Below, in pieces: positions 14,201 to 35,789 of a stretch of 64,000 nucleotides of DNA (position 1 is the stretch's first letter; every line of letters starts with the position of its first letter). The notes below the pieces were generated by a model. It saw only the letters and a list, made by a program, of their open reading frames with translations. It searched no databases and was not told the DNA's origin. The DNA is taken from positions 186,001-250,000 of the forward strand of contig NZ_ARYL01000001.1 of NCBI RefSeq assembly GCF_000685295.1, read 5' to 3'. The translations under genes were made by a program, and so were the position numbers. Origin of the DNA: Hyphomonas oceanitis SCH89 (GTDB lineage: Bacteria; Pseudomonadota; Alphaproteobacteria; Caulobacterales; Hyphomonadaceae).

Positions 14201-14243
14201 CGCCCGCTTGACAGGCGGCCAAGTTCCGGCGACGCCAGAGCCC

Positions 14244-15188
14244 GTGAAGACCGCTGTTTCCCTCCCCCCCGTTCGTGGCAAACTTATCGCGCAGGCGATC
14301 CTTGCCCCCTATACATGGTTCCGCGTTGGCGGACCGGCCGACTGGCTGTTCCTGCCGGCCGACGCCGATGACCTTGCTGAATTTCTGAAGCAGCTGGACC
14401 CCGCCATTCCCGTCACGGTTCTGGGTGTTGGCTCCAACGTGATCGTGCGCGATGGCGGCATCGAAGGCGTGGTCGTGCGCCTGATGGGCAAGGCCTGGGG
14501 CAACGTCGAGGCCGAGGACGGTATCTCACTTTCAGCTGGCGCTGGGGCGCTGGACCTGTCTGTCGCGAAGGCCGCCGCAGAAAACGGCATCAAGGGACTG
14601 GAATTCCTGTCAGGCATTCCGGGATCGCTGGGCGGCGCCACGCGCACCAATGCGGGCTGCTATGGCAAGGAATTGCGCGATGCGCTTGTCAGCCTGCAAG
14701 GTATCCGGCGTGACGGCAGCCGTATTGTCTATCGCGGCCCAGGGCGGCCCGGCGCGCTGCCGGAAGCCCACTTTTCCTATCGTCACACCGACTTGCCGGA
14801 CGACCTGATCGTTACGCGCCTGCTGCTCGAAGGCAATGACACCGGCGCTCCGGCGGACATTCTGGCAGATATTGAAGCTCTGCAGAAACGCCGCTCAGAG
14901 ACCCAGCCGATACGCGAAAAAACATCCGGGTCGACTTTCGCCAATCCAGATCCGCCCGGTACGCCGAACCAGCGATCTGCCTGGAAACTGATCGACGCTG
15001 CCGGATGTCGCGGGCTTCGCGTCGGCGGCGCGCAGGTCTCCGAGCTGCACTGCAACTTCCTGATCAATACGGGCGACGCGACAGCTGCCGATCTGGAAAC
15101 GCTTGGCGAGACCGTTCGCACCCGCGTGCTGGATCACAGCGGTGTCCAGCTGCGCTGGGAAGTGCGCCGCATCGGGCGGCCTGCCTAG
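14244..15188 (+). CDS. murB: UDP-N-acetylenolpyruvoylglucosamine reductase
   Basis: 314 residues. NADPH-dependent FAD enzyme making UDP-MurNAc for peptidoglycan. The FAD-binding half shows [26 protein letters not shown] and [20 protein letters not shown]; the C-terminal half has SGSTFANP (catalytic serine) and [24 protein letters not shown] 14244 is chosen because MurB proteins usually begin a few residues before [11 protein letters not shown] 14208 is the other option. In related alphaproteobacteria murB is directly followed by ddl; here a TonB receptor on the other strand separates them, and the two genes share the CTAG at 15185-15188 tail to tail. Confidence 0.93.
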
Positions 15189-17241
15189 AATGTACCTTTC
15201 AGCTTGAAGGAGACGATCGGTCCGAAGTCGCGCGAGCGCGCTTCACGGGTAAGCAGAGCGCCAAGCCGATTGGGCGCATAGGTCTCGCGCCAGTACCAGT
15301 CATGCTGGTTCAGAATATTGCCAAGCGTCAGGGTGCCTGTCATGCCGAGCAGGTCCTTGTTCTCGACATAGACATAGGAAAAGGCTGGCTGATTGCCCTG
15401 ATGGGTCACTTCGTCGAGGCGATACACCTTATTCTCGTTATAGGATTCGAGGAATATCCCGACAGCCCAATCCGTCTCGGGAATATCCCGCCTCAGTTCG
15501 GCATTTAGAGAGTAGATGGTGTCACCGTTGATTGGCCGGTCCACGCCGGTCAGTGGGTCGGCGACACGGGAGTCACGCCATTCGCCATGAAAGGTCAGCT
15601 GCGTTCCGGTGAGTCCCAGCTTGGCAAATTTCACCGTCGCGTCGAGGTCGGCACCGACCCGCCATGCAGAATCGAGATTACCGGCCCGTCGCCTGCGCCA
15701 ATCGGCACACGGTCGACAATGTCTTCGATGTCCGAGCCGAACACGGTCAGCGTCGCCGCCCCCCAATCCCGGAAATCCTTCTCGGCCGAGAGGCTAACCT
15801 TCCAGGATTGCTCCGGAACAATCTCCGAATTGCCTTGGCTGCCATTCCCCTGGTTCAGGTTCACCGAGGATATGAAATCGAAGAAATCGAGCTGACCAAC
15901 TTCGCGGTCAATCCGCGTAACCAGCTTCAGGGACGGGTCGACTTGCCAGGACAGGCTGGCAAAGCCCTTGGGCCGGGTAAATGTACGAACGTTCTCGGCG
16001 TCCCCTGTCTGGGACAGTTCAGACATTTCAGCGCCTAAGGAAACCTGAAGACTGACACTTTTTGACAGGGCACGGCCATGTGTCACAGTCAGCTCACCGC
16101 GCTGTTCCTCGACGCGCGAGTTTGCATTGGGCAGGAATATCTCGGCCAGCGGCGCCCCGCCTTCCGATGCGAACAATTGGGATTGGGCCTCAAGGAAGTT
16201 GAATGCCCCCTCCAGCGAGACCTGCCAGTCACGGCCGGGCGCCGGCACCCATGCATATTCTCCTCGCAGGATATATTCGCCTTCATAGACTGTCTGGTTG
16301 AAGAGGGAGTCGAATGCATTGGCGCCATCGAGATTGCCCCCCCGCACCCGATCTGTCGTCGGACTTTCCTCGCGGCGCGCCAGCGTAATCGTCTTCAGGC
16401 GCCCCGGTCCGAGGTCGAAGGCATAGTCGGCGCTCAGCTCCGCTGTCTTCTCGTCTTCAGACCCCTGGAACAGGCGTCGCCCTTCAAGGCCGCCGACGGG
16501 AAACAGCTTCGATATCTCCTTGTCGTCCGGTTCGTAGGTGCCAATCTTTGCGCTGAGGTTCGCGATGTTGCCACCCACCGGCTTCCAGGCGAGCGATCCG
16601 GCGAGAGAGGCATATTCGGCCGCATGGGTATAATCTTCCTTGCGGGTTTCTATTAGAGCGCCCGTTGCGTCGGTTATGCGTTCGGGCCCGGCGTCCGCAC
16701 CGCGCTCAGGCGCGCTTTCTGCTTCCGCCGTCCAGCTGACCGCGCCCTTTCCGCCAGACAGGCTTAGCGCCATGTCATTATAAGTGGGCGGCAGGTTTTC
16801 CCGCACCCGGCCCTTCCAGTGCCATGTGCCGGAAACGCCGCCCGTCTCCCGTGTGATCACATTGACCACCTGGCCTGACAGGCCGGGAATGCCCAGCGCC
16901 GTTCCGTCGAGCAATTCAACGCGCGCCACGTTGGCGATCGCGATCCGGCCGAGCGCGGATTCCGCTCCGTTCGACTTGCCGGAAACGCGCTGTCCGTTGA
17001 TCAGGACGTTTCCGGTCGCCTGCCCGAAGCCGCGAGACCCGTCATCATCATCGTCGATTGAGAAACCCGGAATTCGCTCGACCATTTCAAGGGCGGTGCG
17101 CGGCGCGAACTGGGCAAAATTCTCTGGTGTGTAGACCGTCGGCGTCTCACCCGTGTTCGCTTCAACCGCCTCGGCTGCGATTGCATTGGGCGCTGCCAGT
17201 GCAAGGAAGACGCTTGCGCAAATCGGAACCGGGTGTTTCAT
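15185..17241 (-). pseudogene. TonB-dependent receptor, disrupted by a one-base frameshift
   Basis: A signal peptide (MKHPVPICASVFLALAAPNA), a plug domain with VLINGQRVSGKSNG and ARVELLDGTALGIPGLSGQV, and a beta-barrel ending in phenylalanine (VSFKLKGTF) mark an outer-membrane active-transport receptor. The first frame (17241 to about 15688) leads into a nonsense tail ending at 15631; the barrel continues in another frame from about 15685 to 15185. Adding one G to the G3 run at 15685-15687 (minus strand) restores one 685-residue protein reading ...GDGAGNLDSAWRVGADLD. This is either a real frameshift, a phase-variable run or a sequencing error. A BlaI-type operator lies 76-105 bases upstream. 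Ligand unknown. Confidence 0.85.
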
Positions 17242-17316
17242 GTGAGCGTGTTTCCTGGCATAATTTGTCTTGGGGACGCATGCGGCGCTAGGGATCAGGT
17301 CGTATCGTAATTCGAT

Positions 17317-17346
17317 AACACATGACTACATATGTAGTCATGTGTT
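17317..17346. promoter_or_regulatory. BlaI/MecI-type operator between the TonB receptor and ddl
   Basis: A perfect 30-base palindrome centred on 17331/17332; its inner 16 bases are GACTACATATGTAGTC. The TACA/TGTA dyad is the hallmark of MecI/BlaI/CopY-family operators, and the 12-base core CTACATATGTAG is identical to the site in front of the blaI gene at 35690-35705. It lies 76 bases upstream of the TonB receptor ATG and 139 bases upstream of the ddl ATG, so it could control either. Confidence 0.75.
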
Positions 17347-17484
17347 GGCAATCCCCTCTTGGTGACTTTTTCGTAACTTGAGCCGGAGCATGATCCGGTT
17401 TCGCCTGACTCATGCCGCTTTCGTGCGGCATAGGCGGTGGCAAGCGGCAGAAAACCCGCACTCAACTTGCAAGAAGGACAGGCC

Positions 17485-18393
17485 ATGAAGCGCGTAGCAG
17501 TCATTTACGGGGGCTGGTCTTCCGAACGCGAAGTCTCGCTATCATCAGGCAAACAGATGGCAGAGGCTGCGCGCGGTGCAGGATATGATGTCGTCGAGAT
17601 TGATGCCGGGCGCGATCTGGCTGCACAACTTAGCGAAGCGAAACCCGATGTCGTGCTGAACGGCCTGCATGGCCCCTGGGGCGAGGATGGTTGCGTACAG
17701 GGCCTGCTCGAAGTGATGGGCCTGCCCTATTCTCATTCCGGCGTGCTCGCTTCGGCCCTGGCCATGGACAAGCTGAAATCCAAGGCCGTTTACCGGGATG
17801 CCGGCCTGCCAATCGCCGCTGACAAGCGCGTTACCCGCGCGGAAGCCGCCGCAAGCCACCCGCTAAAGCCCCCGTATGTCGTCAAACCGGTCGCGGAAGG
17901 GTCCAGCTTTGGTGTGCTGATCGTGCGCGAAGGGGCCAATAGCCCGCCGCAGGAATTGCTCGGCTCCGGCTGGCACTATGGCGACAATCTGATGGCCGAA
18001 GAATTCATCCCCGGCCGCGAACTGACAGTCGGCGTTTTGGGCGACCGGGCCCTCGCTGTTACCGAGATCACGACCTTAAGGGACTATTACGATTTTGATG
18101 CGAAATATCAGGCTGGAGGATCGCAGCATGTGATCCCGGCAAACCTGCCTGCTCACGTGACCGAAGCCGCGATGGACGCAGCTCTCAGGGCACATCAGGC
18201 GCTCGGCTGCCGGGGCGCGACGCGATCCGATTTTCGCTATGACGACAAGAGAGACCGCCTCGTGATCCTGGAAACAAATACACAGCCCGGCATGACGCCC
18301 ACCTCGCTTGTCCCCGAACAGGCCGCTTTCGTAGGCATGTCCTTCGAAGCGCTTGTCGCATGGATGATCGAGGATGCTTCATGCCAAAGGTAA
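17485..18393 (+). CDS. ddl: D-alanine--D-alanine ligase
   Basis: 302 residues, ATP-grasp enzyme that makes the D-Ala-D-Ala dipeptide of peptidoglycan. Motifs: [19 protein letters not shown] (glycine-rich ligand loop), [20 protein letters not shown] with [26 protein letters not shown] (ATP loop), [13 protein letters not shown], and the metal-binding [23 protein letters not shown] 17485 is preferred over an upstream in-frame codon because AAGGACAGG precedes it and the Rossmann strand starts there. First gene of ddl-ftsQ-ftsA; overlaps ftsQ. Confidence 0.95.
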
Positions 18394-33546: not shown

Positions 33547-33556
33547 GGACACATCC

Positions 33557-33853
33557 TCATTTGCAGGTGAGTCGTATCGACACTTCCTCGATAAGGGGCA
33601 CGTGTGCCGGGTTGGCAAAACTCACCCACCAGACGCCCGGCTCTGCAGAGCGGCTTTCCGTGACCACGAATAATCCATTCGTTTTGTGGCGGGCAGAAAC
33701 GCCCAGTTCGCCGGGCGGGCAATCCACCCTAAGGGTCGCCTCCGCGCCCCCTTCGAGGCGCATGGTCTGGTGACGAACGACTTCCTGCGCTCTGTTGGGC
33801 ATGGCGGCGCAGCCCGCCATCAGCCCGCCGATCACCAACCATCCCCGCTTCAT
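33557..33853 (-). CDS. Small lipoprotein in the blaI-blaR1 operon
   Basis: 98 residues. Lipoprotein signal ending LMAGC (Cys near residue 15), then about 80 residues rich in beta strands with two cysteines (RVDCPPGELGV and RLTCK at the C-terminus) that could form a disulphide. No family recognised. ATG 33853 overlaps the blaR1 stop (TGATGA), so it is tightly coupled to the M56-TonB gene and may be a partner of it. Confidence 0.7.
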   Translation of the reverse strand: MKRGWLVIGGLMAGCAAMPNRAQEVVRHQTMRLEGGAEATLRVDCPPGELGVSARHKTNGLFVVTESRSAEPGVWWVSFANPAHVPLIEEVSIRLTCK

Positions 33854-35280
33854 CACTCGATGCAGAATTGCAGCGGATAGCGCTGGCCCTTGACCACCAT
33901 CGAACGGCCATTCGGACCGATATGGGGCTTGAAGCGCGCACCCGACATTCTAGCCGCTTCCTCCACAAAGACCGGATCGGAGCACTCTGCCATCATGTCC
34001 CTTGGCAGTCCGTCGGTGCCCAGATCGAACATGACCTCACAGGCACCGCTGATCTTGTCTTTCGCCGCAGCGACGGGATAGCCTGGCTGCGGGTTGGTCA
34101 CTTCTTCGGGAACCCAGTTCTGACCGAGGTTCAGGCCAGCTTTCTGGTTGTCCTGTTGCGAGGCCTCAAGACGCGCCATCCAGAAAGCAGATGGCTGGCG
34201 ATCCGCCCACCAGGTATTGTAGGGGCTGCAGGCCTCCTGTACGGTTTGCGGCGCCACGACAAGGTCTGGCGCAGGCGTTACCGGCATATCTTCTGGCGCT
34301 GGCGTCGGCGCGCCCGGCGCGGCGGCGGCGCCCTTGATCAGCATGCCCTGCGCAAGGGCGAGCGGCGCAGCGCAGGCCAGCGCGGCGGCCATGACGAGGC
34401 CGAGACGGCGGGGCCGGGTTTTTTCGGTCAACAATTGGTTGAGTCGCATTTTCAGGTTTCCTTTCTTCCTGAGTATGAATGCCGCCACAGGCAGCACTGC
34501 CGCATCGCGCGAGATGCGCGCCGCAGACGTCAGGGTTCGGGCATAGGCGATCCGGTCGCCCGTTAATTCGACTGTGTCATCGTCCACCACGGCCTCTCGC
34601 CAGAAGTCGAGCTGGTCGCGTATTACCCAGGCAAAGGGTGAGAACCAGAGCAGGTCTGCCACGATCCGCTCCAAGGGCCTGGCGATCAGGTCGCCGCGTT
34701 TCAGGTGCACCAGTTCGTGCACGATCACTTGCTGGGCGCCCTCCCCCCGGATCAGAGCCGATGGCACGTAGACGGATCGCCTGAACACGCCCGCCAGAAA
34801 AGGCGACCCGCGCGGTATGACACGGATTTCCGGCACGCGGGAGAGGCCGAGCGCTTCGGCCCAGTGACCGACCGGCCGGTTCGTTCTCAATGCGCGCACC
34901 TTGATGCGCTGCAGCCGCACCTGACTGACCAGCCACAGAACGAAGCGCACCAGCCAGCCCGCGGCCAGCACGCCGAGCACCAGCGTGCCAATCTCCGGCA
35001 AATTATAAGCCGACACCGGGGCGGAGACGGCCACGCCCCCTTCCGGCCCAACCATCAACGGCTCCAGCATCGGTACATCCGTCAGCGGGGCGACACCCAT
35101 CATGGACAGGCCCGGCACAAACAGTGAGGCAGCAAACGGCGCAACCAGCATGAGCGCCGCGCCACGCCAGATTGCCTGCGCCAGCTTCGGCGTGGGCTTC
35201 ATCCGGCAGATCAGGCTGGCACCCGCCCAGACAACGGCGCTCCAGCCAAGGGCGAGCAAGACCAGACCCAACGGGCTCAT
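33853..35280 (-). CDS. M56 (BlaR1-type) metalloprotease with C-terminal TonB domain
   Basis: 475 residues. N-terminal membrane helices, then the cytoplasmic gluzincin domain with HELVHLKRGD (HExxH) and the downstream FWREAVVDDDTV glutamate. A further membrane helix (LGLVMAAALACAAPLALAQ, about 290-310) leads into a periplasmic Pro/Ala linker. Where BlaR1 has a penicillin-binding sensor, this protein ends with a TonB C-terminal-like domain: NPQPGYPVAAAKDKISGACE ... FKPHIGPNGRSMVVKGQRYP. BlaR1-type proteases cut BlaI repressors; TonB domains touch outer-membrane receptors. Start overlaps the blaI stop (ATGA). Confidence 0.85.
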   Translation of the reverse strand: MSPLGLVLLALGWSAVVWAGASLICRMKPTPKLAQAIWRGAALMLVAPFAASLFVPGLSMMGVAPLTDVPMLEPLMVGPEGGVAVSAPVSAYNLPEIGTLVLGVLAAGWLVRFVLWLVSQVRLQRIKVRALRTNRPVGHWAEALGLSRVPEIRVIPRGSPFLAGVFRRSVYVPSALIRGEGAQQVIVHELVHLKRGDLIARPLERIVADLLWFSPFAWVIRDQLDFWREAVVDDDTVELTGDRIAYARTLTSAARISRDAAVLPVAAFILRKKGNLKMRLNQLLTEKTRPRRLGLVMAAALACAAPLALAQGMLIKGAAAAPGAPTPAPEDMPVTPAPDLVVAPQTVQEACSPYNTWWADRQPSAFWMARLEASQQDNQKAGLNLGQNWVPEEVTNPQPGYPVAAAKDKISGACEVMFDLGTDGLPRDMMAECSDPVFVEEAARMSGARFKPHIGPNGRSMVVKGQRYPLQFCIE

Positions 35281-35660
35281 GCCTTGTCGCCTTTCTTGTC
35301 CTCTGCGGCATTGATTATGGCATCCAGCTCGTCTAGCTCGGCATCTGAGAGATGGGGGCTTTCGGCAAAAAGCGCGGCCGGGATCGGCCCGTCCATGTCC
35401 AGCACCTGTCGGGCGAAATGGCGGACCAGGCCGCCCAGCGTCGCGGTGCGGTCAAGGGTGGCAGTGTACACCGCCATGCCGTGAACGTCGGCACGGGCAA
35501 CCCAGCCTTTCTCTTCCATGCGGGCAATCACGGTGCGCGTGGTGGAGGGCTTCCATCCCTGCCCCGGTCCAACAGCGTCGTGCACCTGGCGGGCGCTTTG
35601 CGGGCCACCTCTCCAGAGGTGTTTCAGAACCGCAAGTTCGGAAGAGTTGGGTTGGGACAT
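35277..35660 (-). CDS. BlaI/MecI/CopY family transcriptional repressor
   Basis: 127 residues, typical length. Winged-helix domain: SSELAVLKHLWRGGPQSARQ then WKPSTTRTVIARMEEKGWVAR, followed by the dimerisation region. BlaI-type proteins repress promoters until cut by a BlaR1-type protease, here encoded by the next gene with overlapping stop/start. ATG 35660 is chosen over upstream in-frame codons because these would cross the operator. A perfect BlaI-type operator lies 30-45 bases upstream, so autoregulation is expected. Confidence 0.92.
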   Translation of the reverse strand: MSQPNSSELAVLKHLWRGGPQSARQVHDAVGPGQGWKPSTTRTVIARMEEKGWVARADVHGMAVYTATLDRTATLGGLVRHFARQVLDMDGPIPAALFAESPHLSDAELDELDAIINAAEDKKGDKA

Positions 35661-35689
35661 AAGTGCCTCACTGCGCTTGTCACACTCTA

Positions 35690-35705
35690 CGCTACATATG
35701 TAGCG
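35690..35705. promoter_or_regulatory. BlaI-type operator upstream of blaI
   Basis: CGCTACATATGTAGCG, a perfect 16-base palindrome with the TACA/TGTA dyad, 30 bases upstream of the blaI ATG. The core CTACATATGTAG is also found at the TonB receptor/ddl gap. Confidence 0.8.
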
Positions 35706-35732
35706 CATGCGTGTCAAGAGTAGCGAAAAACA

Positions 35733-35761
35733 AAACGGCCTGCGTTGGAAGCAGGCCGTTT
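35733..35761 (-). terminator. Terminator of the small membrane protein gene
   Basis: AAACGGCCTGC (35733-35743) and GCAGGCCGTTT (35751-35761) form an 11-bp stem. Read on the minus strand it is followed by TTTTGTTTTT, so it ends transcription of the gene at 35790-36068 before the blaI promoter. Confidence 0.8.
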
Positions 35762-35789
35762 GTTCAATTTATCATTTGCGTGGGTACGT

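Follow-up and report, generated by a model that had tools for sequence, protein, structure and literature searches.

Switches made of a BlaI repressor and an M56 protein are known above all from antibiotic resistance. In the Gram-positive systems BlaI/BlaR1 and MecI/MecR1, a small winged-helix repressor of the Penicillinase_R type acts on a TACA/TGTA dyad, its gene is followed by one for an M56 protein, and it regulates its own expression together with that of a beta-lactamase or a penicillin-binding protein. CopY proteins carry metal-binding cysteines. For these proteins the available text of PMC7253601 describes the TACANNTGTA core as necessary, not sufficient, with the flanking bases also mattering for binding, and Table 3 of that paper indicates that related CopY proteins bind many, not all, of one another's operators. 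The accessible portions of other papers report a response of Gram-positive BlaI and MecI to a peptidoglycan fragment as well (PMC3305447), list a BlaI/MecI/CopY-type gene and an M56 gene in tables of hemin-dependent changes in Porphyromonas gingivalis (PMC10470040), and place BlaI and BlaR1 on Clostridioides difficile plasmids (PMC6807378). Among the matches listed for the titles and abstract openings of open-access literature, none could be recognised as describing a TonB receptor under a BlaI-family repressor, and the whole word BlaI is absent from PMC12864828, PMC10754441 and PMC7200025.

The locus described here lies in a 64,000-nucleotide stretch of Hyphomonas oceanitis SCH89 DNA (the window; Table 1) and shares with BlaI/BlaR1 and MecI/MecR1 the Penicillinase_R repressor, the TACA/TGTA dyad and the M56 gene that follows; autoregulation, known from the Gram-positive systems, is predicted for Hyphomonas as well. 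Besides the window repressor, BlaI1, the same genome (G000) encodes a second strong Penicillinase_R protein, BlaI2, outside the window (G000:C4:159745-160104), with an M56 gene behind it. Both pass the curated cut-off of 22.6 for PF03965, BlaI2 with 117.8 bits and BlaI1 with 71.8 bits, and two further hits in this genome fall just over it (25.5 bits, on contig C35) and under it (21.6 bits). The closest solved relatives are MecI (1okr, 1sax) and a penicillinase repressor (1sd4, 1xsd). The putative recognition helix, placed by alignment to MecI and by what we take to be the fold of these proteins, reads S-T-T-R-T in 49/49 distinct BlaI1-type sequences and R/K-T-V/I-K-T in 60/60 distinct BlaI2-type sequences scoring at least 120 bits.

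Two differences from the described systems concern the proteins, and a third the predicted target. The two M56 proteins of this genome score 74.8 and 167.5 bits for the M56 domain (PF05569) and carry the HEXXH motifs HELVH and HELTH, respectively, but unlike in BlaR1 and MecR1 a Pfam scan of both found no transpeptidase-type or extracellular penicillin-binding sensor domain; the C terminus of the window protein resembles TonB_C weakly, with 21.1 bits where the cut-off is 24.6. Neither BlaI1 nor BlaI2 contains a cysteine, so the metal-binding cysteines of CopY are absent, and the CopY_TcrY model gives BlaI1 39.3 against a cut-off of 121.95. The predicted target is a TonB receptor, whereas BlaI and MecI act on a beta-lactamase or penicillin-binding protein.

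Table 1. Positions in the window of the predicted operators and of the genes around them
Feature	Position	Strand	Basis or remark
murB	14208..15188	+	receptor lies between this gene and ddl, on the minus strand
TonB-dependent receptor, 536-codon open frame	15631..17241	-	domain scan; C-terminal part continues in another frame
Perfect 30-bp palindrome enclosing the receptor operator	17317..17346		conservation does not extend to the outer 7 pairs
Predicted receptor operator for BlaI2, class B: GACTACATATGTAGTC	17324..17339		class B flanks in 37/39 receptor-bearing Hyphomonas genomes
ddl (D-alanine--D-alanine ligase), divergent neighbour	17485..18393	+	domain and profile scans
M56 (BlaR1-type) membrane metallopeptidase	33853..35280	-	HEXXH present; no penicillin-binding domain found
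blaI1, window BlaI/MecI-family repressor	35277..35660	-	71.8 bits for Penicillinase_R; the scan began at the TTG at 35663
Predicted autoregulatory operator of blaI1, class A: CGCTACATATGTAGCG	35690..35705		flanks and upstream survey

The site next to the receptor gene is, as originally predicted, an exact palindrome of 30 bp (AACACATGACTACAT / ATGTAGTCATGTGTT; 15-bp arms, 100% complementary, spacer 0), for which the chance expectation at equal base frequencies is about 6e-5 per 64 kb (64000 x 4^-15). Its 12-bp core CTACATATGTAG was likewise correctly said to occur exactly twice; the copies are at 17326-17337 and 35692-35703, a search of the window with up to two mismatches gave no further place, and the whole assembly (4,280,175 bases) holds the same two exact copies, no copy with one mismatch and 21 with two. 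Domain scans bear out the neighbours named in the original prediction, a TonB receptor, ddl and a Penicillinase_R gene about 18 kb away, and the distances of 76 and 139 bases given there are right to a base, with 75 bases from the palindrome to the receptor ATG (17241) and 138 to the ddl ATG (17485). Of the outer seven palindrome pairs a mean of 2.39/7, a figure taken with no shuffled baseline, is kept in 36 other Hyphomonas receptor sites, and 3/7 in the nearest relative among the genomes searched (G039). These pairs are not conserved, so the conserved element is the inner 16 bp, and a functional role for the outer arms was rejected on the same ground. A sigma-70 consensus scan of 17200-17520 returned 0 promoters.

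The original prediction also held that the receptor site matches the one at blaI1, which is true of the 12 core bases only. Immediately outside the core the receptor site has GA..TC and the blaI1 site CG..CG, two bases to a side, and this difference is kept in relatives; sites are accordingly described here as class A (as at window blaI1) or class B (as at the receptor). Upstream of blaI2 in the same genome lie GACCACGAATGTAGTC and GACTACGGGTGTAGTC, 25 bp apart. Both the 16-bp length and the importance of the flanks recall CopY/CopR, and the receptor site GACTACANNTGTAGTC fits the consensus RNYKACANNTGTMRNY published there (PMC7253601, available text); class A departs from it by its C at position 1, and the blaI2 half-sites GACCAC by their C at position 4.

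Conservation of the two classes was surveyed in 42 Hyphomonas genomes, of which 39 yielded the receptor, 40 blaI2 and 22 blaI1; a hit was scored as blaI1 from 80% identity to the window protein upwards, and weaker hits, mostly at blaI2 places, were left out. Neither G051 (92% complete) nor G068 (84% complete) yielded blaI2, though both have the receptor site. With up to two core mismatches, a TACA/TGTA-type dyad lies upstream of every blaI2 (40/40) and every blaI1 (22/22), and we infer that each such site is the operator of the repressor it precedes. All 40 blaI2 genes have two class B sites, spaced by 24 bp (10 genomes) or 25 bp (30 genomes), and all four class B flank bases are present in 80/80 of them; by the same four bases 21/22 blaI1 sites are nearer to class A and that of G040 is tied. 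At the receptor, a site nearer to class B is found in 37/39 genomes, with all four flank bases in 36 of these, while G060 and G071 have no site within 200 bp of their best-matching receptor copy and the second receptor copies of G050 and G067 have none. The TACANNTGTA core is complete in 10 of these 37 sites, with one mismatch in 22 and two in 5. A sorting matrix trained only on sites upstream of repressor genes, with the genome in question left out, returned 22/22 blaI1 sites as class A and 80/80 blaI2 sites as class B, and it placed 37/37 receptor sites in class B with log2 odds of 4.6 to 24.6 (14.0 for the window site).

Whole-genome searches gave short lists of sites. In G000 the pattern GACYACRNNYGTRGTC has three matches, the receptor site and the two at blaI2, and its reversed control has 0. 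In a set of 18 Hyphomonas genomes that we picked from the 42 (15 with the receptor, 3 without), it has 50 matches, 36 at blaI2 (two in each of the 18), 12 at the receptor and 2 elsewhere, against 3 for the reversed control; the pattern misses the receptor site in three of the 15 receptor-bearing genomes (G057, G067, G072). GACYACRNNYGTRGTC groups the receptor with blaI2 and not with blaI1. Allowing at most one mismatch, GACTACANNTGTAGTC has matches in 62/105 genomes of the family, which in G000 are only the receptor site and the proximal blaI2 site. Among the matches listed, extra class B sites were seen just upstream of an S15/X-Pro dipeptidyl-peptidase gene in G041 (L118), just upstream of a small exported-looking gene with no Pfam hit in G049 (L121) and, with one mismatch, between a DUF2807 gene and an alpha/beta-hydrolase gene in G016 (L129). 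For the class A pattern the reversed control outnumbered the pattern matches in most genomes. One candidate second target of BlaI1 in this genome (class A, 1 mismatch; G000:C26:31332) was taken as chance because it lies inside a 454-codon open frame whose sequence resembles a membrane transporter. Extra class A-like sites were seen in G043, G048, G066, G073 and G074, and in other genomes BlaI1 may have targets beyond its own promoter.

Very probably the receptor is controlled from a genuine BlaI-family operator at this site, the repressor being the paralogue encoded outside the window, and the sequence comparisons lead us to favour, at a probability of roughly 0.83, binding by BlaI2 with relief through the M56 protein. 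BlaI2 is preferred over BlaI1 on the flanks, the whole-genome site lists and the natural absence of blaI1 from some genomes; one regulator for both window sites was rejected on flanks and co-occurrence together. In the proposed mechanism, BlaI2 dimers would bind GACYACRNNYGTRGTC, and repression would act through a tandem pair of sites, spaced by 24-25 bp, at their own operon and through a single site at the receptor; by analogy with BlaI/BlaR1, an envelope signal would act through the M56 protein to inactivate BlaI2 and so turn on both its own operon and the receptor. BlaI1 would recognise CGCTACANNTGTAGCG-like sites, and its own promoter appears to be its one clear target in this genome. BlaI2 is kept without the receptor in G059, G063 and G064, and the receptor thus cannot be the sole reason for BlaI2.

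Binding of the receptor site by both repressors, with BlaI2 the stronger, is unlikely. The CTACATATGTAG core is common to both window sites, the partial exchange of operators among CopY proteins (Table 3 in the available text of PMC7253601) offers a precedent, and one receptor, that of G087, has a site of each class; against this, the flank classes at the repressors' own promoters stay apart throughout the survey, save for the tie in G040.

The receptor gene is embedded in a cell-wall and division cluster (window 14208-18393; L230-L263). Within the sequence examined, 31 of 83 receptor loci have ddl and murB, 5 have ddl alone and 47 have neither. Four records titled as Acidobacteria or Candidatus Sulfopaludibacter (L247, L249, L254, L256) encode receptors 54-60% identical to that of the window; since this is within the Hyphomonas identity range and ddl and murB adjoin, the record titles look wrong. 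The original prediction extended control by the operator, with a perhaps, to the ddl-ftsQ-ftsA operon; a reading in which ddl and with it ddl-ftsQ-ftsA-ftsZ are controlled is in keeping with the 138-base distance and with the divergent orientation of ddl in 61/64 rows (some genomes have more than one row; the other three have no ddl in the sequence examined). We consider it improbable. A gene reading as a formate/nitrite transporter, called by Pfam on the G020 copy and by N-terminal likeness in G006 and G007, lies between ddl and the receptor in these three genomes, and the class B sites of G006 and G020 are found near the receptor (88 bp and 85 bp upstream, respectively) and more than 1 kb from ddl, which leaves control of ddl unsupported. 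The receptor site of G007 is A-like.

In the window the receptor gene itself is atypical. Its open frame has 536 codons, compared with 685 in G039 and about 680-740 in most Hyphomonas rows, the frame breaking at 15600-15720 with C-terminal sequence readable in another frame, so that either the gene is broken or the draft is misassembled. The broken copy still scores 31.8 bits for the plug (PF07715) and 27.7 bits for the beta-barrel (PF00593), and of these two domains the plug alone passed E 0.001 in the protein of G039. With the frame broken, regulation in this strain may have no working target.

Control of the receptor by the window repressor, BlaI1, which was the original reading, is very improbable; the original prediction is supported as regards the family of the repressor and not supported as regards the protein. 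An identical 12-bp core in the same region speaks for BlaI1, as do the A-like receptor sites in two of three g4 (Hirschia) genomes and the 10/14 Henriciella receptor sites placed in class A by the matrix trained on Hyphomonas sites, but the window site and 37/37 Hyphomonas receptor sites have class B flanks, and many genomes have the receptor site yet lack blaI1. No match of at least 80% identity to blaI1 was found in 20/42 Hyphomonas genomes, and the class B site of the receptor occurs without blaI1 in 16 of the 37 site-bearing genomes, 10 of these 16 being at least 96% complete. Among 29 genomes at least 96% complete, blaI1 presence changes at least five times on the receptor tree. In H. chukchiensis (G039), the region at window 33550-35789, which holds blaI1 and its M56 gene, is replaced by 128 bp within one contig (L208 5875-6002), the window flanks on both sides align at 90%, and the receptor site is identical over 16 bp despite the missing cassette. 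One genome scored as blaI1-negative, G066, may hold a truncated copy, since a class A-like site lies at the end of one of its contigs. That the palindrome arose by chance and has no regulatory role, as the lack of conservation in its outer arms might suggest, can practically be dismissed given a 16-bp element kept in 37/39 genomes while the receptors diverge to 55% identity, and a very low whole-genome background.

Outside Hyphomonas the receptor sites differ. The four Henriciella sites placed in class B are those of G004, G006, G015 and G020, and three of the ten class A calls (G016, G017, G021) have odd flanks. Five more first copies were read, two CG-flanked (G012, G018) and three with GTTTACA..TGTAACA. 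Upstream of the G087 receptor (L330) there is one A-like and one B-like site, as expected of a transitional or dual-controlled state; G089 has a B-like site and G002 another, degenerate site. No receptor site was found in G003, G088, G077, G090 or G092, nor at the second copies of G018 and G024. In the three Hirschia genomes BlaI2 has no match at E 1e-12 and blaI1 is present, and the receptor sites are A-like in G034 and G035 and missing in G033. The A-type receptors of Hirschia and Henriciella may have a window-type BlaI as their regulator.

Core-like sites were found in 35/76 named loci with enough upstream DNA, where base shuffles predict 2.25; the first 35 loci (Hyphomonas, Henriciella, Hirschia and kin) account for 29 of them and 41 more distant loci for 6. 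On a receptor tree of 67 rows, made by a quick method with no bootstrap and with several long branches, the four class B Henriciella rows form a supported clade inside an A group, and the tree requires a minimum of two A/B changes when 13 unassigned rows and G087 are left out. blaI1 is present in 12/12 A-labelled and 25/41 B-labelled genomes (Fisher p 0.01, related genomes not being independent).

The class A majority in Henriciella, set against class B in Hyphomonas, suggests that the receptor passed between paralogous repressors during evolution. A fuller chain of events is unlikely: one of two paralogous BlaI/M56 envelope sensors would have handed the murB-ddl-embedded receptor to the other through changes at two base pairs beside each operator half, repeated loss of the freed cassette would have followed, and the receptor would take up fragments of the cell wall while a cell-wall-sensing repressor controls it. 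This whole chain is less likely than the hand-over by itself. Import of cell-wall fragments is put forward on account of the response of Gram-positive BlaI and MecI to a peptidoglycan fragment reported in the available part of PMC3305447.

Hyphomonas has a Gram-negative BlaI/M56 pair with no detected penicillin-binding sensor domain and with a very small, readable set of predicted targets that includes a TonB receptor. A site cannot be assigned to a regulator from the common TACANNTGTA core alone. For operator specificity the two paralogues are a natural experiment: one and the same receptor gene has GA-flanked sites in Hyphomonas and mostly A-type sites in Henriciella, and a small binding matrix would therefore test the transfer of a target between sister repressors.
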